Below, piece after piece: positions 17,680 to 28,387 of a stretch of 41,358 nucleotides of DNA (positions are counted from its first letter, which is position 1; every line of letters starts with the position of its first letter). A program made the position numbers and the translations under genes. The notes beneath the pieces are model-generated. The model did no database searches. It had not been told where the DNA came from and saw only the letters and a program-made list of their open reading frames with translations. The DNA comes from Acidimicrobiaceae bacterium (GTDB taxonomy: Bacteria; Actinomycetota; Acidimicrobiia; Acidimicrobiales; Aldehydirespiratoraceae), in NCBI GenBank assembly GCA_028819005.1, contig JAPPMP010000021.1, positions 42,125 to 83,482 of the forward strand. The letters are read 5' to 3'.

Positions 17680-19497
17680 TCACGAAAGGCCTTCGAACGG
17701 ATCGGCTGGTTGGTTCGATTGCCGGCCTGCGGGCGCCTGTGACAGGTCTGCTTCGGCGGAGCGGGTGGCCCAAGCCGGGAACGGGAACTCCACCAGCAGC
17801 GGAACCGGGAGCCGCGGCTGGGCCACGAACATCGATCCGGGTTTGAGGATCGTGGCCCGTTGGCGCTGCACCGCGGGCAGGAACCCGTACTGCTCGCGCC
17901 CCGCCTCGCCGCTGTCGAGCCGGCCCACCACGCGCACAGCGCTGTTGGCCACGACCCGGCGCTCGACCTCGCTGGCGGTCTGTTGCGCTCCGATCAGGAT
18001 GATTCCCAGGCTGCGACCCCGTTCGGCCACGTCCAGCAGAATCTCCTTGATGGGGCTGCTGTTGTCGCGCGGGGCGTACTTGTTGAGCTCGTCCAAAACG
18101 ATGAACTGCAACGGTTCAGATGTGCCGCTGCGTTCCTTGTCTTCGAAGGCCTGACGCAGCACCACTCCGACTACGAAGCGTTTGGCCCGGTCATGCAGCA
18201 GGTGGATGTCGATGACCGTCAACTGCTGGGAGTCGAGATCGATCGAGTGTGCGGGCGCATCGTCGAAGTCGGCGCGGATGAGATGCTCGACATGGCGAAC
18301 TGAGGCGTTCAGGCGTCTAATGAAGGCGTTGATGGTGCCGCTGCCGATGGCACGGCCCGACCAGCGCGGGTCCACCGGCTGATCCGGGTCGTCGGGGATG
18401 AGTATCGACTCGATCACCTCCGCCAACTGACGGAAGGTCCGTATCGTCTTGCGTTCGATTTGCACCGTTCCGGCCGAGGTGTCGGAGTCGTGGGCGCACT
18501 GCGCCAACCGTTCGGTGACCGACTGCACGACGATGGTGTAGTGCTGTCGTTCGTCTTCGGCGTCGGCGAACAGGAACGGCAGCAGACGCCGGCTGCAGAA
18601 GTCGGCGATTGTCCAGAAATATGGGCGCACCCCGGTAGTTCGAGCCCCAGTGGCGGGTGTGGCGTTGGGGTCGCCTTGCCGGGGCGGGGCTAGGACGCCG
18701 ACCGAGCGGAACGGCGCGGCTTGCAGCCCGAGCGCTCCGTAGCGGGCGCGTTGAGCTTCATCGAGGCGGGTGTTGAGGTGGTCCAAGAACAGCAGGTCCT
18801 CGCCTTTGACATTGAATATCAGGCCTTTGGTGTGCGCGGCTGCGGCGCCGAGAACCCCGGAGTTGAACAACGAATACAAAAGGAACGTCGCGTAGCTGGT
18901 CTTGGTGGCGACGCCGGAGATCCCGCTGATGTTGATGTGCGCGCCTTTGGTGCCGTCGATGAAGTCGAGATCGAGGCAGATCGGATCTTCGTCGCGGCTC
19001 AGCCCGGCGGGCAATCGGCGTTCGACCTCGTCAAAATCGAGCGCTGCGTCCCGTTCAGCGTCGACCGCCCGCCGCACCTCAGTTCCTGGAAGCGGCGGAA
19101 CGAACGTCTCGGGCACTACGCGGGTCACCTGCACCAGAGCTGCCTCCGTCACCTCCGCCGGCAGGATTCCGTCCGAAATCAAGAACACGTCGCTGTCGAA
19201 GCGAGCGCCCTCGTGTCGGGCTCGAACCTGGCTGACGATTCCGTACAGCTTTATCTTGTCGCCGTTCGGCAACTCGCGGTCGATGGCGACGACATCGTCG
19301 AGCTGCAGGTGATGTTCGGGGGCCAGTGCTACCCAGAACTCCAGTGGCGTAGCATCATCGGTGCCGAGCACACGTCCCAGGCCGTTCACGGCCACGACTC
19401 TACAACCGAGCGACGCGCACGCGTATCCGAGTGCCGGCTCAGACGTCCGGGTGCATGTGAATTCATACGGACTCAGCGTGCCGGGAAGAACTTTCAT
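17680..19497 (-). CDS. herA: HerA-like hexameric DNA-translocating ATPase
   Basis: A ~605-residue protein. An N-terminal ~150-residue beta-rich region, like the HAS-barrel of HerA, precedes a FtsK/HerA-type ATPase. Walker B is FIVLDELNKYAP (~464), and the following ILIGAQQTASEVER segment fits sensor and arginine-finger regions. The P-loop position reads GISGVATKTS (~190), where HerA normally has GMTGSGKT, so both canonical glycines are displaced. HerA works with NurA in end resection, and sbcD and sbcC follow directly. The start at 19497 (MKVLPGTL) is preferred to a GTG at 19512. The start codon lies inside an AT-rich segment shared with the small coiled-coil gene that diverges from it. Confidence 0.85.
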   Translation of the reverse strand: MKVLPGTLSPYEFTCTRTSEPALGYACASLGCRVVAVNGLGRVLGTDDATPLEFWVALAPEHHLQLDDVVAIDRELPNGDKIKLYGIVSQVRARHEGARFDSDVFLISDGILPAEVTEAALVQVTRVVPETFVPPLPGTEVRRAVDAERDAALDFDEVERRLPAGLSRDEDPICLDLDFIDGTKGAHINISGISGVATKTSYATFLLYSLFNSGVLGAAAAHTKGLIFNVKGEDLLFLDHLNTRLDEAQRARYGALGLQAAPFRSVGVLAPPRQGDPNATPATGARTTGVRPYFWTIADFCSRRLLPFLFADAEDERQHYTIVVQSVTERLAQCAHDSDTSAGTVQIERKTIRTFRQLAEVIESILIPDDPDQPVDPRWSGRAIGSGTINAFIRRLNASVRHVEHLIRADFDDAPAHSIDLDSQQLTVIDIHLLHDRAKRFVVGVVLRQAFEDKERSGTSEPLQFIVLDELNKYAPRDNSSPIKEILLDVAERGRSLGIILIGAQQTASEVERRVVANSAVRVVGRLDSGEAGREQYGFLPAVQRQRATILKPGSMFVAQPRLPVPLLVEFPFPAWATRSAEADLSQAPAGRQSNQPADPFEGLS

Positions 19498-19506
19498 TAT
19501 TTTCCA

Positions 19507-19536
19507 TTGCACATTGATCTTGAACTGGATTAGGGT
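19507..19536 (+). promoter_or_regulatory. Promoter of the first small coiled-coil gene (conserved element, copy 1)
   Basis: TTGCAC at 19507-19512, an 18-bp spacer, and TAGGGT at 19531-19536, followed by 6 nt and ATG at 19543, predict a leaderless mRNA. About 55 bp around it, from TTTCATTA to ATGGA, align closely with the region before the third copy (38893-38949). Confidence 0.6.
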
Positions 19537-20180: not shown

Positions 20181-21536
20181 CTAGGTCGAGTAGCCGACGA
20201 GATGGTCGGCGAGGGCTGTGATCTGATCTCGTATGCTTTGCGGGCTGCCGGACAAGTCGATGCCTACGGCATGGAGTCGTGTCCCCACGTTCCTGACTTC
20301 GATGCTGGACTTTGCCAGGCGCGCGGGCGAGGAGTCGGAACGGTCCGCTGCATCGCCGTCGCCCGTTTCGTTGGCATCGACACAGTAGATCAGCGTGCCG
20401 CAACGGTGGTCGAGTGCCGTCGTGTAAGCCAATAACTGATAGTAGTCGGCATGGGTCGCCCAGATTCCTGAGCCGGCATCCTCCGCCGCGGCGGACTCGT
20501 AAGCTTCGCGGAGTTTGTACTTGATGTCGGCGACCCCGACGCTTGTACCGTCCCGGCTGAGCAGCAGATCCGGTTTGATCCTCACGTTTCCATCTGTGTC
20601 CAGCGTGCTGGACTTCTGCCCCTCAACCTCCAGACGACCGCTCAGTTCCTGTCGCAGACGTTCTGTGACAAACCTCTCGAAGAGTTTGTTCATGTCCAGC
20701 ATGAACGCCGAGGCCGTTGTGTCACCGTGCTGGTCCTGCAGCGTGAGGTTGGCCAGGATCAGGCGGGCAAGATGCATCGCATGCAGGTAGTGGTCGTTGA
20801 GCCGAGTGAAGGTGATGCGTTCTAGATCGTCCGCGTCGGTCGGCACGTCGGCCACGTCTTCCAAGGCAACTAGCAGACGCATGATTCGACGTCGGTCTAC
20901 GGGCTTCACCCCGGCGACCCGTATCGCTCGTCGCATCGCCGCCTTGAGATAGCGGTTCTCGGCAACGTCGGCCGTGAAGTCGTCATAGGAGCAGGCCATC
21001 GGAACCAGGAGTCCACCCCTGCGGAACTGGCGCGTGAAGTCGAGCCGCCCGCGCAACGCCAGCAGGTCTTCTTCTTCGTGACGGTACGAGTGGTAGTGCC
21101 CTCGGGCCAGCGTCGTTTCTGCCCTGCGCGCGAAGAACGAGATCAACTCCGATAACAGATCGTCGGTCTCTGCGTAGTCGATCGCCCCCGGCTGCCGGGC
21201 TTCTTCTGGCAGACCGACTTCCAGCAGCAGAAACAGGTTCTCCAGGTTGATCTTGGGCCTCACCATGACCCGCAGCCCGTCTATCGTGAACCCCCCGACG
21301 AACTGCTTCGCGGTGATTTTCCAATACCCGGCTCCAGAATCGGGCTGCACCGACAACCAGGGCAGGTCCCTGAGCCGTCGCGCCAGTGATTCGCTCAGCT
21401 CGATCCGCCGCGTCTCCCACTCCACCAGTGTGACCGGCTCCAATTCGACCGGCGGATCATCGACCCGCGGCTCATCGACCGCGGGCATCCGGTGAGCGAT
21501 CTCCGACTCCTCAAGCACACTCGCGACAACCGACAT
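20181..21536 (-). CDS. mcrC: McrC-type nuclease subunit of a McrBC restriction system
   Basis: A 451-residue McrC-family protein. The N-terminal ~190 residues carry the family's beta-rich domain, with a segment around GYWKITAKQFVGGF. The C-terminal PD-(D/E)xK nuclease core is seen as an Asp in KPDLLL (~322) and the DIKYK motif (~340). McrC cuts DNA when stimulated by the McrB GTPase ring after McrB binds modified DNA. Its start lies 12 bp after the mcrB stop, so the two form an operon in the usual order, mcrB first. Confidence 0.9.
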   Translation of the reverse strand: MSVVASVLEESEIAHRMPAVDEPRVDDPPVELEPVTLVEWETRRIELSESLARRLRDLPWLSVQPDSGAGYWKITAKQFVGGFTIDGLRVMVRPKINLENLFLLLEVGLPEEARQPGAIDYAETDDLLSELISFFARRAETTLARGHYHSYRHEEEDLLALRGRLDFTRQFRRGGLLVPMACSYDDFTADVAENRYLKAAMRRAIRVAGVKPVDRRRIMRLLVALEDVADVPTDADDLERITFTRLNDHYLHAMHLARLILANLTLQDQHGDTTASAFMLDMNKLFERFVTERLRQELSGRLEVEGQKSSTLDTDGNVRIKPDLLLSRDGTSVGVADIKYKLREAYESAAAEDAGSGIWATHADYYQLLAYTTALDHRCGTLIYCVDANETGDGDAADRSDSSPARLAKSSIEVRNVGTRLHAVGIDLSGSPQSIRDQITALADHLVGYST

Positions 21537-21548
21537 CTCGTCGTGTCT

Positions 21549-23960
21549 CTACTCGCCGCCCGCTGTTGACTCACCGCCGTCTGGACCCAGCGACTCGATC
21601 TGTTCAAACGTTCTCGTCGGTTTTGAATCTTCGGTCAGGTCGGCTTCGCGCGCGGTCTCACCACGACCGTGTCGCCCTAGCACAGCGTCTAGGCGGAATT
21701 GCTTGATCTTGTCGGTCCGGCCGAAGAGTTGGTCCTCGATGAAGGGTTCAATGTTGTATTCCCAGACGCGCTCGAAGCCTCCCTCGTTGAGGCCGGGCTT
21801 CATGAAATGGCTTGGCCCCAGCTGCAGGTGATCCCCGCCAAGCTCTCTTTCGAGTTCGCTATTGACTGCGGATACCAGGGCAGGTACCCAAGCTTGGTCG
21901 GGCGCGTTTTTGTAGGTCCACTTTCGCAGCAGGCTCGCTGTCGGTTCTCGCTCGGGGAAGAAGGGCACGAAATGGAACCGCCTGCGCATGGCCGCGTCGA
22001 TGAGCGCGATCGAGCGGTCGGCGGTGTTCATCGTGCCGATGAACCAGATGTTCTTCGGCAGTTTGAAGCTGTCGTCGGGTCTGTGCATCACCGCTATCGA
22101 CTTGTCCCGGTATTCGAGCAGGTAGAGCAGCTCGCCGAGCACTCTGGGAAGGTTTGCCCGGTTGATCTCGTCGATCACCATGACGTGCTGATCGGGATGG
22201 TCCGCCGCATGTTCAGCCAGCCTCGCAAGCGGTCCCGGCGTCAGTTCGTAGGTCATCTGATTGTCGTCGTCGGTGACCGGGCGGTAGCCCTCGAAGAAGT
22301 CCTCATAGGAGTACGCCGGATGGAACTGCACCAGGCTCCGCGTCTCGTCCTCGGGCGCCAACGCTTCGGCCAGAGTCTGCGCCAGGTAGGTCTTGCCGGT
22401 CCCAGGCGGACCATAGAGGATGATCTGCCCCTTGTCTTTGAGCAGACCAACGAGTTCCTCGAGATACTCCCACTTGCAGTACAGCCTCTCCGCGGCATCT
22501 GCCAAACGGTCTTCCATCTCAAGCTCGTCAACACTCGGCGGGTCTTGCTTGACGCTGGGATTGCGGTCACCGGGATCGATACCGTGCTCCGCCAGATATT
22601 GGATCCGATACGGTGCGTCACGCTTACGCAATCCGTATATGGTCTGCGGGCCGTTCAACATGGAGTTCAAATCCGCCGCAAGGACTTCTCTAGAAATGCC
22701 AGTCTGGAGCCACTCAACTGCTCTGCGTCGGCTCAACCCGTCCCCGAACGAAGGGTCGTGCTCGTAGGGGCCCTGAACGCGCCCAATCGCAACTCGCCGA
22801 GAGTCGAGTTCAGGTCGCTTCTGCGGCATGACGACAAAGTCGTCAACCTGCATTTCTCTGCCAAACCTCCAGATCTGGTCTCGTGCACTAGTCCCCCAAT
22901 GGGTAAGGCCTAACTCGTTCATGAGTTCGCCGAGTTCTTGACGGCTAGCAAACATCTCGAGATCCATGGTCAAGTCCAGATCCCATCCGAGAGTGATTAC
23001 GCTGTGGTTGAGATTGTGCCGTTCCATCTCACCGTTTGGGCCCGCACGCACAAGCCAGGTTCTCGGCGCTTCGGCCCGCGACTGCCGGTACTCGCACCAC
23101 TGCCCGATTATCGAGGAATGGCTATTCCTCAGTGATTCTTCAAGAACATCCTGATCGTACAGATGCCGTTCAACCAGGGCCGGGTCCAGCACCTCAGGGT
23201 TCTTGTCGTGCTTCAACGCGTGCTCAATCCAGCGGTGAACAACAGTTCCGATGCTGTTGATTGAGCCCGGCGAACGTCCACGGGAGCGCAAGTGTTCGAG
23301 GTATTCTTCCAAGCGTTCTCCCCAAAGCTCGGTTTCGTCATCCTGGAGTGACTCGAGGTACTCGCACCATCGACGGATGTGGCCAAGGTAGCCCTTGAGG
23401 GAGTCCTCGGACAGATCCGGACCCTGCTCAAGCAGATTATGTCTCGCTTGAGTTTGGTCAAATTCTCCAGGATCGGCGCTCCGCGCTAATGCTTGGCTGA
23501 TCCAGCGCCGGAGAATGAACCTCTTGGTATTGATCGTGGGTTCTTCATAGCCCTGATCGCGCAGTTGCTCGAAGTACTCCTCCAAGCGCTCTTCCCAATA
23601 CTCGCTTTCGTCATTGTGTTGGTGTCGCCGGTTCGGACTCTCAGGCGCGTGCCATTGGCCTGATCTCGTATCCTGGGTCTGCCAATGCTCACACCAGCGT
23701 CTGATGTGGCCTGTATAGGACCGGAGTGAGCCCTCCGCAAGGTTTGGATTTCGGTCATCCAGTTGATGATCCACTCGAGCTTGGTCGAACGTTGCGGGAT
23801 CCGTACCCCGAGACAACGTATAGCCGATCCAGTCTTTGAGAACCGAACTAGTCTCATCAATCAGGCTGTTCGAAAGACCGCGATCTCCCAAACCGTTCAG
23901 ATATTCCTCTAGACGTTTCTGCCAAAGCTGAGTTTGATCGGGGTTGCTGGAAACGCTCAT
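21549..23960 (-). CDS. mcrB: McrB-type AAA+ GTPase with three integrase-SAM-like N-terminal repeats and a PUA/EVE-like reader domain
   Basis: A ~803-residue protein. Three ~85-residue repeats (about residues 12-97, 120-207, 211-297) share the pattern W..(R/C)LEEY..L, RWI..AL, FD, S.R.Y.GHIRRWCE. This resembles the SAM-like core-binding domain of tyrosine recombinases. A ~160-residue domain follows (WLVRAG, VDDFVVMPQK, AIGRVQGPY), which looks like a PUA/EVE-type modified-base reader. The C-terminal McrB motor has GPPGTGKTY (~515), VMVIDEINRANLP (~592) and WFIGTMNTADRS (~642). I chose the ATG at 23960 because GCGAGGAC lies ~10 nt upstream; an ATG at 23990 would add ten residues. The repeats should bind DNA and probably define the target, which is inference. 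Confidence 0.88.
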   Translation of the reverse strand: MSVSSNPDQTQLWQKRLEEYLNGLGDRGLSNSLIDETSSVLKDWIGYTLSRGTDPATFDQARVDHQLDDRNPNLAEGSLRSYTGHIRRWCEHWQTQDTRSGQWHAPESPNRRHQHNDESEYWEERLEEYFEQLRDQGYEEPTINTKRFILRRWISQALARSADPGEFDQTQARHNLLEQGPDLSEDSLKGYLGHIRRWCEYLESLQDDETELWGERLEEYLEHLRSRGRSPGSINSIGTVVHRWIEHALKHDKNPEVLDPALVERHLYDQDVLEESLRNSHSSIIGQWCEYRQSRAEAPRTWLVRAGPNGEMERHNLNHSVITLGWDLDLTMDLEMFASRQELGELMNELGLTHWGTSARDQIWRFGREMQVDDFVVMPQKRPELDSRRVAIGRVQGPYEHDPSFGDGLSRRRAVEWLQTGISREVLAADLNSMLNGPQTIYGLRKRDAPYRIQYLAEHGIDPGDRNPSVKQDPPSVDELEMEDRLADAAERLYCKWEYLEELVGLLKDKGQIILYGPPGTGKTYLAQTLAEALAPEDETRSLVQFHPAYSYEDFFEGYRPVTDDDNQMTYELTPGPLARLAEHAADHPDQHVMVIDEINRANLPRVLGELLYLLEYRDKSIAVMHRPDDSFKLPKNIWFIGTMNTADRSIALIDAAMRRRFHFVPFFPEREPTASLLRKWTYKNAPDQAWVPALVSAVNSELERELGGDHLQLGPSHFMKPGLNEGGFERVWEYNIEPFIEDQLFGRTDKIKQFRLDAVLGRHGRGETAREADLTEDSKPTRTFEQIESLGPDGGESTAGGE

Positions 23961-24098
23961 GGGCGGGAGTCCTCGCTGTTGGGTTGTCATTGAACAAGCC
24001 GATTGATAGCTCAGATGAGAGTAGCTGGGCGAACCTTTGGGAGTGAGAACTGGGCGCGGGGTCCTGTTTGCTGAGTTCAGGGCCCGACTTTCGGACTG

Positions 24099-24818
24099 TC
24101 AGTTCTTGTACCGCCTCCGCACGCGAAAGACCCGGCGAGGTGGCGGGCGCTGTGAGGGGCGCGGAGCGGAGTGTCGCGGACCATCGGTGCTGTCCGGCCG
24201 ACCTGACTGCCGCCACTTGCACCACCCTCGGATATGGGACGTATAGCTCCTGCGAGAATTCTCCGAGAGATCCAAAGGACCCACGAACGTCTCGAACAGA
24301 TCCTCATCGAACACCTCCGGGCTCCGCCCGGCCCACAACGCATAATCGATCCAACGCGACACAATGCTCTTGGTATCCGAGACCGTCCCCGGGGCACGGT
24401 TCGCTGCGCGCAACGCCGCCAAATACTCCTCAAGACACTGCCGCCAAACCTCATGAACATCGCCACTGTCAGGACTCACACGGTCGCCGACCGGTCGTCG
24501 GTGCCCACTTCTCGCCACGCGCCCGCGAGGGCTGCGGACCTCACCACCTGACTGCCGCCACTTGCACCACCTTCGGATATGGGATGTATAGCTCCTGCGA
24601 GAATTCTCCGAGAGATCCAAAGGACCCACGAACGTCTCGAACAGATCCTCATCGAACACCTCCGGGCTCCGCCCGGCCCACAACGCATAATCGATCCAAC
24701 GCGACACAATGCTCTTGGTATCCGAGACCGTCCCCGGGGCACGGTTCGCTGCGAGCAACGCCGCCAAATACTCCTCAAGACACTGCCGCCAAACCTCACG
24801 GCACGCCTGACCTGCCAT
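24099..24818 (-). CDS. Orphan reading frame with two near-identical integrase-SAM-like modules (decaying or spare McrB specificity repeats)
   Basis: 239 codons. Two ~84-residue modules (about residues 9-92 and 124-207) differ at only two residues. They are clearly homologous to the three McrB repeats: LEEYLAAL, SRWIDYALW, EVFDEDLFE, RRSYTSHIR, WCKWRQS. The ~30 residues between and after them are Arg/Pro/Gly-rich and look like out-of-frame sequence, as if linkers had been frameshifted. A TAGACA lies 6 nt before the ATG at 24818, suggesting a leaderless start. It ends 108-138 bp before mcrB on the same strand. No catalytic or ATPase domain is present. It may be a real DNA-binding protein, a remnant of a longer McrB N-terminus, or a donor of modules. 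Confidence 0.55.
   Translation of the reverse strand: MAGQACREVWRQCLEEYLAALLAANRAPGTVSDTKSIVSRWIDYALWAGRSPEVFDEDLFETFVGPLDLSENSRRSYTSHIRRWCKWRQSGGEVRSPRGRVARSGHRRPVGDRVSPDSGDVHEVWRQCLEEYLAALRAANRAPGTVSDTKSIVSRWIDYALWAGRSPEVFDEDLFETFVGPLDLSENSRRSYTSHIRGWCKWRQSGRPDSTDGPRHSAPRPSQRPPPRRVFRVRRRYKN
24201..24798. repeat. 253-bp direct duplication of one McrB-type module
   Basis: 24201-24453 and 24546-24798 align without gaps at an offset of 345 bp, with only three mismatches that I find (about 99% identity). Each copy encodes one complete module on the minus strand. The 92 bp between them do not match the flanks. The near identity means the duplication is recent, whereas the three repeats inside mcrB have diverged. 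Confidence 0.9.
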
Positions 24819-24836
24819 ACACAGTGTCTACCACAG

Positions 24837-24849
24837 GGACTGTCAGTCC
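24837..24849. promoter_or_regulatory. 13-bp interrupted palindrome in a divergent promoter region
   Basis: GGACT-GTC-AGTCC is a 5-bp inverted repeat with a 3-bp centre. It lies between the divergent starts at 24818 (orphan module gene) and 24888 (AIM24-like gene), where a repressor could control both. Such a short palindrome can occur by chance. Confidence 0.25.
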
Positions 24850-24874
24850 TCTACCAATTCGCCGTGGCGGCAGA

Positions 24875-24880
24875 TAGGGT
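24875..24880 (+). promoter_or_regulatory. -10 box of a leaderless promoter for the AIM24-like gene
   Basis: TAGGGT is followed by 7 nt and the ATG at 24888, without a Shine-Dalgarno sequence. This also fixes the start: the frame is open for another 103 codons upstream, but that part is antisense to the module gene. Confidence 0.5.
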
Positions 24881-24887
24881 GACGGCC

Positions 24888-25571
24888 ATGCAGGTAGATA
24901 TTCGTCACGCTCCCAGTTTTGCCGTCGCCAGGTGCACGCTCGGGGGTGGTGAGCAGGTCAAAGTCGAGGCTGGCGCCATGTCGGCCCATTCTTCAGGGAT
25001 GTCGCTCGAGGCCAAGGTGGAAGGCGGCATGCTCAAGGGGCTCAAGCGCAGTGTGTTGGGCGGTGAGTCGCTGTTCGTTTCCACCTACACCGCCCCGGCA
25101 GCGGGCGGCTGGGTGGATGTGGCCGCCAAGCTGCCCGGCGATCTCCGGGTGATCGAACTCGACGGTTCCCAAGCGTGGATTATCGAGCGAGGCAATTGGC
25201 TGGCCTCTGACGCCTCGGTGGTGATGGACACCAAGTGGGGTGGATTCAAGTCGATGTTCGGCGGTGAAGGAGGGTTCATGGCCCACGCCGAGGGCACCGG
25301 CAGCTTGTTAGTTGCCTCCTATGGAGCGATCGACGTGATCTCGCTTGCTGCCGGCGAAACAGTGGTGGTGGACACCAGCCACATGCTGGCATTTCCCGAC
25401 ACCGTCAGCTACGAGTTGCGCCGGGCCGTGGAAGGCCGCTCGATCCAGTCGATGAAGTCGGGCGAAGGTTTCGTATTCCACTTCAGCGGCCCTGGGGACA
25501 TCCTGACCCAGACCCGCAACCAAGCACAGCTCATCGCTTGGATCAACACCGAGATCGGCTCTCGCGAATAG
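24888..25571 (+). CDS. AIM24/TIGR00266-family protein
   Basis: A 227-residue all-beta protein. It shows the features of the AIM24 family, bacterial relatives of a mitochondrial biogenesis factor: VKVEAGAMSAHS near residue 25, GLKRSVLGGESLF near residue 53, and FMAHAEGTG plus LASYGAIDVISL near residues 128-145. Its biochemical role in bacteria is not established. The start at 24888 was chosen from the leaderless -10 box and because the family sequence begins there. The last 11 codons and the TAG stop are part of a 35-bp direct repeat, the second copy of which lies in the gap before vapC. Confidence 0.8.
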   Translation: MQVDIRHAPSFAVARCTLGGGEQVKVEAGAMSAHSSGMSLEAKVEGGMLKGLKRSVLGGESLFVSTYTAPAAGGWVDVAAKLPGDLRVIELDGSQAWIIERGNWLASDASVVMDTKWGGFKSMFGGEGGFMAHAEGTGSLLVASYGAIDVISLAAGETVVVDTSHMLAFPDTVSYELRRAVEGRSIQSMKSGEGFVFHFSGPGDILTQTRNQAQLIAWINTEIGSRE

Positions 25572-25638
25572 CGGGGCCCGGCAAAACGACGTTCATGCTG
25601 ACCTGGATCAACACCGAGATCGGCTCTCGCGAATAGCG
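25539..25638 (+). repeat. 35-bp perfect direct repeat including the stop codon, 65 bp apart
   Basis: 25539-25573 and 25604-25638 are identical over 35 bp. The first copy contains the last codons and TAG stop of the AIM24-like gene. The second lies after it, before the convergent vapC gene. It is the same arrangement as at the MFS 3' end. Confidence 0.9.
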
Positions 25639-25664
25639 ACAAGCATGGATAGGTGCCGGGGAGA

Positions 25665-26072
25665 CTAGCTGTCGAGGACCGGAGGGGTGATCACGGGGCA
25701 GCGGGTTCCGCCGGCTTTGCTCAGCTTGCGGTCGAGGGTCAGCAGCGGGTAGTCGAACGCTTCGGCCAATGCCACATACCAGGCGTCGTAGCTGGTCAAA
25801 TTGGCACGCAATTCCCACACCCGATCAGAGAACGGAGCGAACGGGCAGAGCTCGATGTCCAACCGGAGCAGGTCGCGTTGCGCTGCTTTGGTTTCCATTG
25901 GCGACACCTGGCCAGAGAGCTCAAGGCGACGAAGAATGTTGGTGGCTTCGACCAGAGCCAGTTCTGGCGCAGTCAATGGACCCTCCGAGGCAACTGATTC
26001 TGCCCATCGGCCTTCAGGACTCGCGTCGACCAAGGCCGCCACAAGCACCGAGGCGTCCACGACAGCGTTCAC
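25665..26072 (-). CDS. vapC: VapC-type PIN-domain toxin ribonuclease
   Basis: A 135-residue PIN-domain protein. The four acidic active-site positions are in place: Asp6 (VVDASVL), Glu42 (LVEATNIL), Asp96 (SYDAWYVALAE) and Asp114 (LTLDRKL). VapC toxins are Mg2+-dependent RNases that cut tRNA or rRNA and are held inactive by VapB. The GTG start at 26072 overlaps the antitoxin stop by 4 bp, with the antitoxin gene first, as usual. The active site appears intact. Confidence 0.9.
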   Translation of the reverse strand: MNAVVDASVLVAALVDASPEGRWAESVASEGPLTAPELALVEATNILRRLELSGQVSPMETKAAQRDLLRLDIELCPFAPFSDRVWELRANLTSYDAWYVALAEAFDYPLLTLDRKLSKAGGTRCPVITPPVLDS

Positions 26073-26305
26073 ACTCGGTCCGCATCGCGTGCCGCAAGGA
26101 TCTCCGAAGACGAGACCCGAGTTCCTGCGGCTTCTTTGCGGTGTCGAACCTCTTCGAACAAGTTCTCCAGGGAGGGCTTCGCAGCGATGCGTTCCAGTTC
26201 ACCGCTGAGGAACTCCTGCATGGATTGTCGCTTCATGGCGGCTTTTGCGGCCAGTGCGTCACGGACTTCCTCGCGCACGCCTCGAATGGTGATCTGTACC
26301 GACAT
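26069..26305 (-). CDS. vapB: VapB/FitA-like ribbon-helix-helix antitoxin
   Basis: A 78-residue protein. The first ~45 residues form a ribbon-helix-helix DNA-binding domain: VQITIRGV strand, then VRDALAAKAAMKRQSMQEFLSGEL helices. This resembles FitA-type antitoxins. The C-terminal tail, with ENLFEEVRHRKEAAG, should wrap around the VapC active site. It presumably represses its own operon, and a palindrome lies on the start codon. Confidence 0.85.
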   Translation of the reverse strand: MSVQITIRGVREEVRDALAAKAAMKRQSMQEFLSGELERIAAKPSLENLFEEVRHRKEAAGTRVSSSEILAARDADRV

Positions 26306-26317
26306 GCATGCATTATG
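26304..26317 (-). promoter_or_regulatory. vapBC promoter -10 and possible operator palindrome
   Basis: On the minus strand CATAAT (26317-26312) ends 6 nt before the vapB ATG, fitting a leaderless promoter. The 10-bp perfect palindrome ATGCATGCAT (26304-26313) covers the gap and the first bases of the gene, a plausible site for autoregulation by VapB. The remaining sequence to 26595 (about 280 bp) shows no gene or structure I can support. Confidence 0.4.
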
Positions 26318-26595
26318 CCATCAATACAGTCACAAGATCCACGAGGAGGGCTGGACTGTCCATCAAGACCGAAAACCCACAAATACCATCTCAAACCACC
26401 CATCGACATTCCGATGCCGGCACGAACCCAGGCCACCAACGCGGCACCGGGATTTGAATCGAGCGGGGCTGGCTGGAGAGCGAACCGCGACACCAGGCAC
26501 CGAAACGAGCAAGGCTGTCTAGAAGCCGCCCAAAGAAACGAAACGCAGCCCAGAGGCGGGAAGCAACCCGGAGGGCGACTGGGAAGAATGGCCGG

Positions 26596-27735
26596 TTAGA
26601 GGGTGACTACCTCGGTGGCGACCAGGTCGGGGTCGGACTCGGGGAGCAGGTAGCGCCAGAAGATGGAACCCCGCTGGTGAGAGTCGGTATCGAGCCAGTT
26701 GGGATGGCCGGGATCTTCGGCGCACACCCAGATCTCGAAACTGCCGTCGTCGTTGTAGCTGATCTGCTCGGCATTGAGCGACGAGTTCCGGTTGCGATAT
26801 TCCAGCGTCTGCATGTGGGCGTTCCAGAGCATCACGTTCACGAAAGGCCCCCGCGGAAGCGTGCCGCGCATAACCAGGGCTTGACCAGGTTCGAGCTCCC
26901 AACGGGTCATGGCGTAATGGATGTCGGCCGCCCCGGGCACAGGCAATCCCGAATCGCGGAAGCTGAACGGAGCGGGGAGCTCGTTGGGAGCATCGGACAC
27001 GAACGGCACGCCCGAACCACCGCCGAAGGAACCCTGCCCGACAGTCACCTGACGCAGAAAGGCGATTCCCTCGTGCATTCGTTCGGCGATGAAGTCATCG
27101 CTCAGCGGCGGCGGGGGCGAGTCCGCATCGAGGCATTCGATATCGATGTCCACATGGACCTGACTGTCGTTCTGTGCCGACAACGGCAACTGGAAATAGC
27201 CTCGCACGACTACGACGATCGTGTCGGGTTCCAGCTTCAGCCAGTCCCCGCCCTCGGCATCGGCCTCCTCGGCGCTGAGGGTCAGGCTGTAAGCACCGTC
27301 CTCGGCAACGGTCAAGTCGCGGTCGTTGACGTCGCCCCGAAGCGGTCCGGCCATACCGCCGTCCTCAGCGGCTGCGTGCAGCGTGAACGACGTGTAGCAC
27401 TCCTTCTGAATGCGTCCGCTCACACGGTATTTTCTGGAACCGTCGATACGCGCATAGTGATAAATGGCATCGGGGTTGTCGCCCTGGAGTTTGCGCCCTG
27501 GATCGACGATTCCAACAAATCGCGGGTGTTCGGGCTGCGCCTCCCAGTACAGCTCCGACATGGCGGAGAGCATCTGCCCCACATAGCGGAACGCCTCGAC
27601 CTGCTCGAGCGGCTCCACCCATCGGGCAGAGTCGAGAACGTAGCCGTCACGGATCTCGGCGAGTGCTGAGATCAGATCGTCGAGCGCAGCAGTGGCCTGG
27701 GGTGTGGGATTGTCGGTCATCCGCGTGTTTGTCAT
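26596..27735 (-). CDS. DUF1214-domain protein
   Basis: A 379-residue protein of the DUF1214 type, common in actinobacteria and often near lipid or steroid catabolic genes. The N-terminal ~100 residues are helical. Beta-rich regions follow, including SRKYRVSGRI (~100), and the DUF1214 region lies at the C-terminus around ALVMRGTLPRGPFVNVMLWNAHMQ (~285-308). It ends with a typical SIFWRYLLPE motif. The function is not known. The ATG at 27735 is divergent from the DUF35 gene with only 19 bp between the start codons; an ATG five codons further in (27720) is possible. Confidence 0.72.
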   Translation of the reverse strand: MTNTRMTDNPTPQATAALDDLISALAEIRDGYVLDSARWVEPLEQVEAFRYVGQMLSAMSELYWEAQPEHPRFVGIVDPGRKLQGDNPDAIYHYARIDGSRKYRVSGRIQKECYTSFTLHAAAEDGGMAGPLRGDVNDRDLTVAEDGAYSLTLSAEEADAEGGDWLKLEPDTIVVVVRGYFQLPLSAQNDSQVHVDIDIECLDADSPPPPLSDDFIAERMHEGIAFLRQVTVGQGSFGGGSGVPFVSDAPNELPAPFSFRDSGLPVPGAADIHYAMTRWELEPGQALVMRGTLPRGPFVNVMLWNAHMQTLEYRNRNSSLNAEQISYNDDGSFEIWVCAEDPGHPNWLDTDSHQRGSIFWRYLLPESDPDLVATEVVTL

Positions 27736-27754: not shown

Positions 27755-28387
27755 GTGGCCGATTCCACCCAAGCCGAACGCAACGAGTCCTCCCAGAGCG
27801 ATATGAGCGACGCAGAACTCCTTGAGCTGTTCGCCGGGCATGGCCTGTACCGCGACAACGCCGCTCAATTCCGCGGCAGACTCGCCGGTCAGTTGTTGAT
27901 CAATCGCTGCTCGGACTGCGGCCGCTATCACCAGCCGCCGCGACCGATGTGCCCAAGTTGCTGGTCCTTCGACGTGGAGCCGACACCGGTCAGCGGCCGG
28001 GGCACGATTCACCTCCTGATGCACCTCCATACCGGTCCACCGGCTGACGGCGTCGACTACGAAACCGGCGGTCATCCCGTGGCAGTCGTGGAACTCGAAG
28101 AACAAGATCACCTGCGTATCACCGGGACGATTCACGGATTCGACGACCTTGATTCCGACGGGCCGGGCATCGGCGACGCGGTCGAACTCGAATACCTGTA
28201 TAGAGCGGGAACGCCGATCGTGTCTTTCCGGCCCAGTTCACACGAACCGAGCCGGCCGAACGAACCGAGCCGGCCGAACCAACAGAACCGGCCGAACCAA
28301 CAGAACCGGCCAGACCAGAAGAGCCAACCGGGCCAGCAGAACCGGCCAGACCAGCAGAGCCAACCGGGCCAACGGGGCCGACGCTGA
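27755..28387 (+). CDS. DUF35 zinc-ribbon/OB-fold acyl-CoA-associated protein (ChsH2-like domain)
   Basis: A 210-residue protein. A rubredoxin-like zinc ribbon CSDCGRYHQPPRPMCPSC lies at about residues 52-69, followed by an OB-fold. This is the DUF35 architecture found in partners of non-catalytic-cysteine thiolases. In mycobacteria the DUF35 domain of ChsH2 forms the aldolase with Ltp2 in steroid side-chain breakdown. The next gene is an Ltp2-like thiolase whose ATG overlaps this TGA, so a complex between the two products is likely. The last ~48 residues are an added tail of hexapeptide repeats rich in Gln, Asn, Arg and Pro, encoded by an 18-bp tandem array; this is not part of the family. 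Confidence 0.82.
   Translation: MADSTQAERNESSQSDMSDAELLELFAGHGLYRDNAAQFRGRLAGQLLINRCSDCGRYHQPPRPMCPSCWSFDVEPTPVSGRGTIHLLMHLHTGPPADGVDYETGGHPVAVVELEEQDHLRITGTIHGFDDLDSDGPGIGDAVELEYLYRAGTPIVSFRPSSHEPSRPNEPSRPNQQNRPNQQNRPDQKSQPGQQNRPDQQSQPGQRGRR
28244..28387 (+). repeat. 18-bp tandem array, eight units, ending exactly at the DUF35 stop codon
   Basis: Units start at 28244, 28262, 28280, 28298, 28316, 28334, 28352 and 28370. Units 1 and 2 are identical, and units 4-7 alternate between two types (28316/28352 and 28298/28334 pairs). The last unit contains the TGA (28385-28387). The array encodes hexapeptides such as EPSRPN and QQNRPD. It therefore lengthens the protein by about 48 residues. Confidence 0.88.

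Follow-up and report, generated by a model that had tools for sequence, protein, structure and literature searches.

Restriction systems of the McrBC class are type IV systems, bacterial defences against foreign DNA, which they destroy, and passages of two studies give DUF3578/ADAM, EVE, DCD and YTH as recognition domains of their canonical branch (PMC11090510, PMC7641849). Here we analyse a window, a stretch of 41,358 nucleotides from the genome of an Acidimicrobiaceae bacterium. It carries a locus that resembles McrBC, as those passages describe it, in having a McrB-type AAA+ gene followed by mcrC and variable small domains on the motor (PMC11090510, PMC7641849). The locus differs in its added domain, which is a tandem module resembling the core-binding domain of integrases and which also occurs outside McrB, in an ORF of its own. 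The words "integrase" and "recombinase" are both absent from the main text of PMC11090510 and of PMC7641849, and passages of PMC11090510, PMC7641849, PMC12707154 and PMC4619093 contain no integrase-like module in McrB. Titles, abstract openings and passages of the wider literature likewise yielded no integrase-like modules in McrB, which does not prove their absence.

The core-binding domain of tyrosine recombinases (XerD, XerA, the integron integrase and Cre) shares a four-helix fold, predicted in our case, and a Phage_int_SAM match with the module. Unlike these enzymes, the window ORF has no catalytic domain; the core-binding-like domain instead comes as tandem copies and is also joined to a restriction motor. 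Four proteins encoded elsewhere (L089, L090, L103 and L104) combine the same module with the restriction-tied RAMA domain (PF18755), whereas a Pfam search shows no RAMA in the window locus.

The nearest precedent for movement of a recognition domain is domain movement (DOMO), which PMC3077401 describes for the specificity genes of type I and IIG systems and their target recognition domains. As in DOMO, where recombination moves, drops or doubles a recognition domain within one gene, the module differs among related genes in where it sits and in how many copies it has. In DOMO the repeats flank the domain (PMC3077401), whereas in the type IV-like system of the window it is the module itself that is repeated. 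The exact match between the window copies ends at the module edges, and a repeat finder shows no common flanking repeat.

The McrBC locus and its repeated module

Three genes lie in a row on the minus strand, in the order two-module ORF, mcrB, mcrC. The mcrB gene (21549..23990) encodes three divergent modules, m1 (23676..23927), m2 (23349..23600) and m3 (23079..23327), the last strongly diverged from its counterpart in the sister locus described below. These are followed by a middle domain (22527..23060; PADLOC PDC-S02, E 4.7e-32), which may be EVE/PUA-like, and by the motor domain (21975..22424; AAA_5, E 1.3e-22; NCBIfam McrB, E 1.2e-35, a match that falls under that model's own cut-off). The adjacent mcrC (20181..21536) matches PF10117 at E 2.1e-56 and passes the cut-off. 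The translated McrB also contains the NxxD GTPase signature as MNTADRS, following the motif definition in a passage of PMC11090510. The locus thus has the McrB-type AAA+ motor, the adjacent PF10117 mcrC and the NxxD signature that mark McrBC systems.

The minus strand further carries, downstream of mcrC, a 610-aa ORF that matches no Pfam family, then SbcD and SbcC. By eye, the 610-aa ORF (17680-19512, between mcrC and sbcD) looks HerA-like, and it contains an unusual Walker A-like stretch, GISGVATKTS. The same genome has a second McrB-like frame at G000:C12:180246-181148. On the other side of the locus, about 1.8 kb (24801-26600) between a DUF1214-type gene and the two-module array hold a plus-strand gene and a PIN-domain toxin-like gene. 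This segment has no counterpart in the sister genome, in which the DUF1214-type gene is found near the array. An exact 35-nt direct repeat at 25539-25573 and 25604-25638 contains the end of the preceding plus-strand gene, from its final codons to its stop, and an 18-nt repeat array occupies 28224-28373.

The two-module ORF (24099..24818, minus strand) encodes a protein of 239 aa, P0001, with an ATG start and a TGA stop. Both modules, the linker and the tail lie in this single ORF (24818-24099), which has zero internal stops. The linker (24450..24548) is 99 nt long, in frame and Arg-rich, and the tail (24102..24203) is basic and Arg/Pro-rich. The in-frame TGA and a 108-nt spacer (23991..24101 together) separate the ORF from the mcrB frame, and the same arrangement is found in the sister locus. 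An 11-nt word, GGACTGTCAGT (plus strand), flanks the ORF at about 24094-24104 and 24838-24848; the outer copy, at about 24838-24848, sits in a 13-nt palindrome.

A 253-bp repeat within the locus, with three differences between copies and one whole module in each, had been proposed from the sequence, and we reproduced its coordinates and its mismatch count. Copy 1 (s1, the first module of the protein) spans 24546-24798, with the module in codons 24549-24794 of the minus strand. Copy 2 (s2, the second module) spans 24201-24453, with the module in codons 24204-24449. Each copy encodes one 82-residue module (246 nt). The copies mismatch at 3 of 253 positions (24227/24572, 24240/24585 and 24409/24754), and their perfect match breaks off immediately at either flank. 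The repeat finder reports a less perfect extension of 266 nt at 97%. The spacing is 345 nt, or 115 codons. The likeness of the two copies far exceeds chance, and the repeat is real and of ordinary size.

Both window proteins match Phage_int_SAM_1 above its cut-off of 22.3 bits (23.9 and 23.3 bits for the two whole proteins). The single module s1 reaches 14.5 bits against Phage_int_SAM, under the cut-off, and 7 of 13 single modules match Phage_int_SAM_1 at E up to 1, none of them necessarily above the cut-off. An AlphaFold2 model of module 2, built from 27 sequences, has four helices and a pLDDT of 97.4. The best VIA-align match of this model is XerD (Z 11.5, rmsd 1.9, 78 of 82 residues), although for helical bundles a Z below 13 may carry little weight. 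Among the 50 VIA-align matches listed, rows 1-32 are recombinases, integrases or phage regulators of recombinase fold, and the first clearly unrelated row comes at Z 6.2. Foldseek alone gives a phage integrase as the best match (E 0.17, probability 1.00). A model of the whole ORF, built from 2 sequences, was poor (pLDDT 52.7) and was therefore left out of the fold search.

In the phylum sample, profile A4 matches 6 of 396 genomes, namely the window's own genome and five others; the profile was built from loci that match it by construction and excludes G004, G978, G980 and the five recombinases. All five of the other matching proteins carry a Phage_integrase catalytic domain, and the window proteins have no match to that domain (PF00589). 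The module is thus predicted, from the structural model, to have the four-helix core-binding (N-terminal SAM-like) fold of tyrosine recombinases. Together, the recombinase-type fold and the profile matches make it a relative of the recombinase core-binding domain that lacks the catalytic part.

A sister locus and the probable homogenisation of the copies

A second species, G049, has a syntenic two-module ORF (L047:7090-7791) immediately ahead of its mcrB, and the protein is 62% identical to P0001. The frame of this ORF is unbroken and is the same as that of mcrB, with one TGA in between. The original prediction had named an unbroken frame in relatives, linkers included, as evidence against itself, and such a frame is what G049 contains. 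Its linker is 114 nt long, 15 nt longer than that of the window; its tail, including the stop, has 78 nt compared with 105 nt, a difference of 27 nt. Because both differences are multiples of three, the frame has been kept between the species.

We also compared the linkers and tails at the DNA level. In global alignment, 1 of 1000 shuffles and 4 of 1000 random genomic pairs score as high as the window and G049 linkers do against each other; in local alignment 110 of 1000 shuffles do, which is not significant. For the tails, which remain recognisably alike in DNA, the global score is reached by 0 of 1000 shuffles and 1 of 1000 random genomic pairs. Cross pairings of linker with tail give 163, 72, 482 and 41 of 1000. 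The shared layout is best explained if the two-module arrangement predates the split of the two species, for which the linker provides moderate rather than strong support.

The copies are alike within each species and unlike between them. Over 246 nt, the window copies differ at 3 positions and the G049 copies at 37, and copies from different species differ at 62-77 (69-75% DNA identity between species). In G049, 34 of the 37 differences fall within the first 72 nt and are followed by 171 identical nt, a run that none of 200000 permutations produced. Orthologous pairings are rejected in favour of grouping by species over the 246 sites (log-likelihood difference 75.7) and over the last 174 sites (67.7); over the first 72 sites the difference is just 5.0 and is not decisive. 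In this 5' stretch the window agrees with copy 2 of G049 and not with copy 1 at 21 sites, against 7 sites with the opposite pattern (p 0.013, although adjacent sites are not independent), as if both window copies derive from copy 2.

Since the G049 copies resemble each other and not those of the window, an older duplication, homogenised independently in each species, accounts for the pair better than recent copying within an array in decay. These comparisons read most naturally as the outcome of conversion, or of unequal exchange, inside each lineage. Module turnover by recombination, with gene conversion keeping the module DNA alike, had been one of two alternatives offered at the outset; the within-species grouping and the sharp edge of the G049 match support it.

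Divergence between the two species is uneven along the locus. Synonymous divergence is 0.8-2.1 in the array, 0.13-0.21 around m1, 0.03-0.11 around m2 and 1.1-1.2 in m3. Past m3 it is mostly 0.15-0.9, and it rises again at the mcrB C-terminus. This mosaic indicates that modules within one locus have different histories. In the array modules, nonsynonymous change is rarer than synonymous change (Fisher p 6e-6 for copies 2 and 1e-7 for copies 1), a significant deficit that indicates constraint at the protein level, though conversion within each lineage may blur this signal.

Codon usage and alternative origins of the pair

The copies might also have arisen from one ancestral module before mcrB that was duplicated separately in each lineage, without gene conversion. 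Such duplications would produce about the same within-species similarity, and they fit the window copies, which are alike across the entire module. A fresh duplication of the whole module would not leave the G049 copies different at 34 sites in the first 72 nt and identical over the next 171. Linkers, tails and frame are common to both species, and the 5' part of the window sides with G049 copy 2; taken together, these points make separate duplication improbable. We consider it highly unlikely that the second copy, or the likeness of the copies, was produced by short-read assembly. Close repeats can look more alike after short-read assembly than they are, both genomes are drafts (that of the window in 52 contigs), and the sister contig is a SPAdes-style node. 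Three differences nonetheless separate the window copies, the linker between them is unique, and the independent assembly of another species has the same two-module layout.

The other alternative offered at the outset was decay of a longer array with very recently duplicated modules, and the sequences between and after the copies had been described as frameshifted. This description does not hold for the reading frame, since one unbroken ORF carries both copies at a spacing of 115 codons, but the codon usage is odd. In the linker, codon usage favours the +1 frame over the ORF frame in both species (the +1 score is matched by 0 of 2000 shuffles in the window and 9 of 2000 in G049), so the unease about these sequences had a basis. 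A stop interrupts this +1 frame in the window species and G049 alike. In the tail, coding-like codon usage was looked for and none was seen. Coding on the opposite strand (24068-24877) was considered and rejected: the frame is open, yet every module match is on the minus strand.

The unbroken ORF and its sister ORF rule out a frameshifted reading frame and, with it, frameshift or decay as the main reading; the odd codon usage of linker and tail is the reason to keep decay as a rival. In that form, the ORF would be a decaying, broken and unexpressed piece of a once longer, five-module McrB arm, severed by the in-frame TGA. A single TGA does separate ORF and mcrB in one shared frame in both species, and in G049 the start regions of the small ORF and of mcrB are alike (80% over 51 nt). 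The search for a sigma-70-like promoter at the two-module ORF found none, and the ORF has no clear ribosome-binding site in the window. On the other hand, frame, stop and layout have been kept in two species despite synonymous divergence near 1. A comparison of synonymous and nonsynonymous differences across copies had been suggested as a check; the module dN/dS of about 0.2-0.27, together with the significant deficit of nonsynonymous change, speaks against decay, as does the unbroken frame in G049. We therefore regard the severed-arm explanation as unlikely and favour a pair of modules homogenised within each species.

Distribution of the module and its candidate role

Within the family, 11 of 51 genomes have a match to P0001; profile A2 matches 12 of 397 genomes in the order sample, and A4 matches 9 of 395 in the class sample. 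The place of the module in McrB frames varies. It is N-terminal in the window, G049, G046, G357, G309 and G229, lies between the middle domain and the motor in G047 and G048, and is C-terminal, with a shortened start, in G004, G007, G011, G013, G014 and G016. The fusions to RAMA occur in G205 (L089), G048 (L090), G980 (L103) and G978 (L104). These varied McrB positions and RAMA fusions indicate that the module moves among proteins related to restriction or to modified DNA. In L090, RAMA and the module are arranged as two alternating pairs. A 323-aa frame in G024 (L056:2776-3744) has the module at its start and a remainder of no recognised type.

The small ORF is present in two (G000, the window genome, and G049) of the five genomes, of the same or another genus, that have this McrB. 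It is absent beside the McrB of G046, G047 and G048 in the stretches scanned. The six-frame module scan covered the window, L022-L045 and L047-L062, and later loci were scanned separately. The plasmid collection gave no match, none of 27 pattern matches in viral contigs was confirmed, and P0001 was not found in named genome contigs.

The sequence comparisons establish the locus, its shared layout, the within-species likeness of the copies, the mosaic divergence and the varied module position. We think it rather probable that these tandem modules of the recombinase core-binding type, homogenised in each species, represent a shuffled, putative DNA-recognition module of type IV restriction. By analogy with recombinases, the module would grip DNA, and it may form part of the recognition arm of the McrBC enzyme. 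McrB would use three modules of different kinds, and the small protein could supply two modules of like specificity in trans, either as a McrB partner or as a DNA-binding adaptor. Within each species the copies have become nearly identical, most naturally through gene conversion or through unequal exchange limited to the module. Exchange of modules may shift the DNA that is recognised, as occurs with the target-recognition domains of other restriction enzymes. The window modules have a net charge of 0 and the G049 modules of -5 and -4, unlike the linkers and tails, which are basic; uncharged or acidic modules are at odds with a plain backbone-binding domain.

A more specific proposal, which we hold to be quite doubtful, is that McrBC of these Acidimicrobiaceae reads DNA sequence through a string of integrase core-binding modules, formed either by McrB together with the two-module protein or by read-through of the TGA to give a five-module McrB. 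The pair matched by conversion would then bind a repeated target, and exchange would change specificity between species. Read-through enters only into this most speculative reading because the coding score of the 108-nt spacer does not stand out from its shuffles, 526 of 2000 and 478 of 2000 of which score at least as high.

The fold, the locus, the shared frame and the homogenisation within species are the solid part of these results, and they amount to an informative variation on themes already known, not to a novel type of system. If the proposed recognition role is correct, the DNA-gripping half of recombinases would serve as an exchangeable recognition module of modification- or sequence-directed restriction. 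The comparison of the two species would then catch module homogenisation and swapping in a testable case of target change in type IV restriction.
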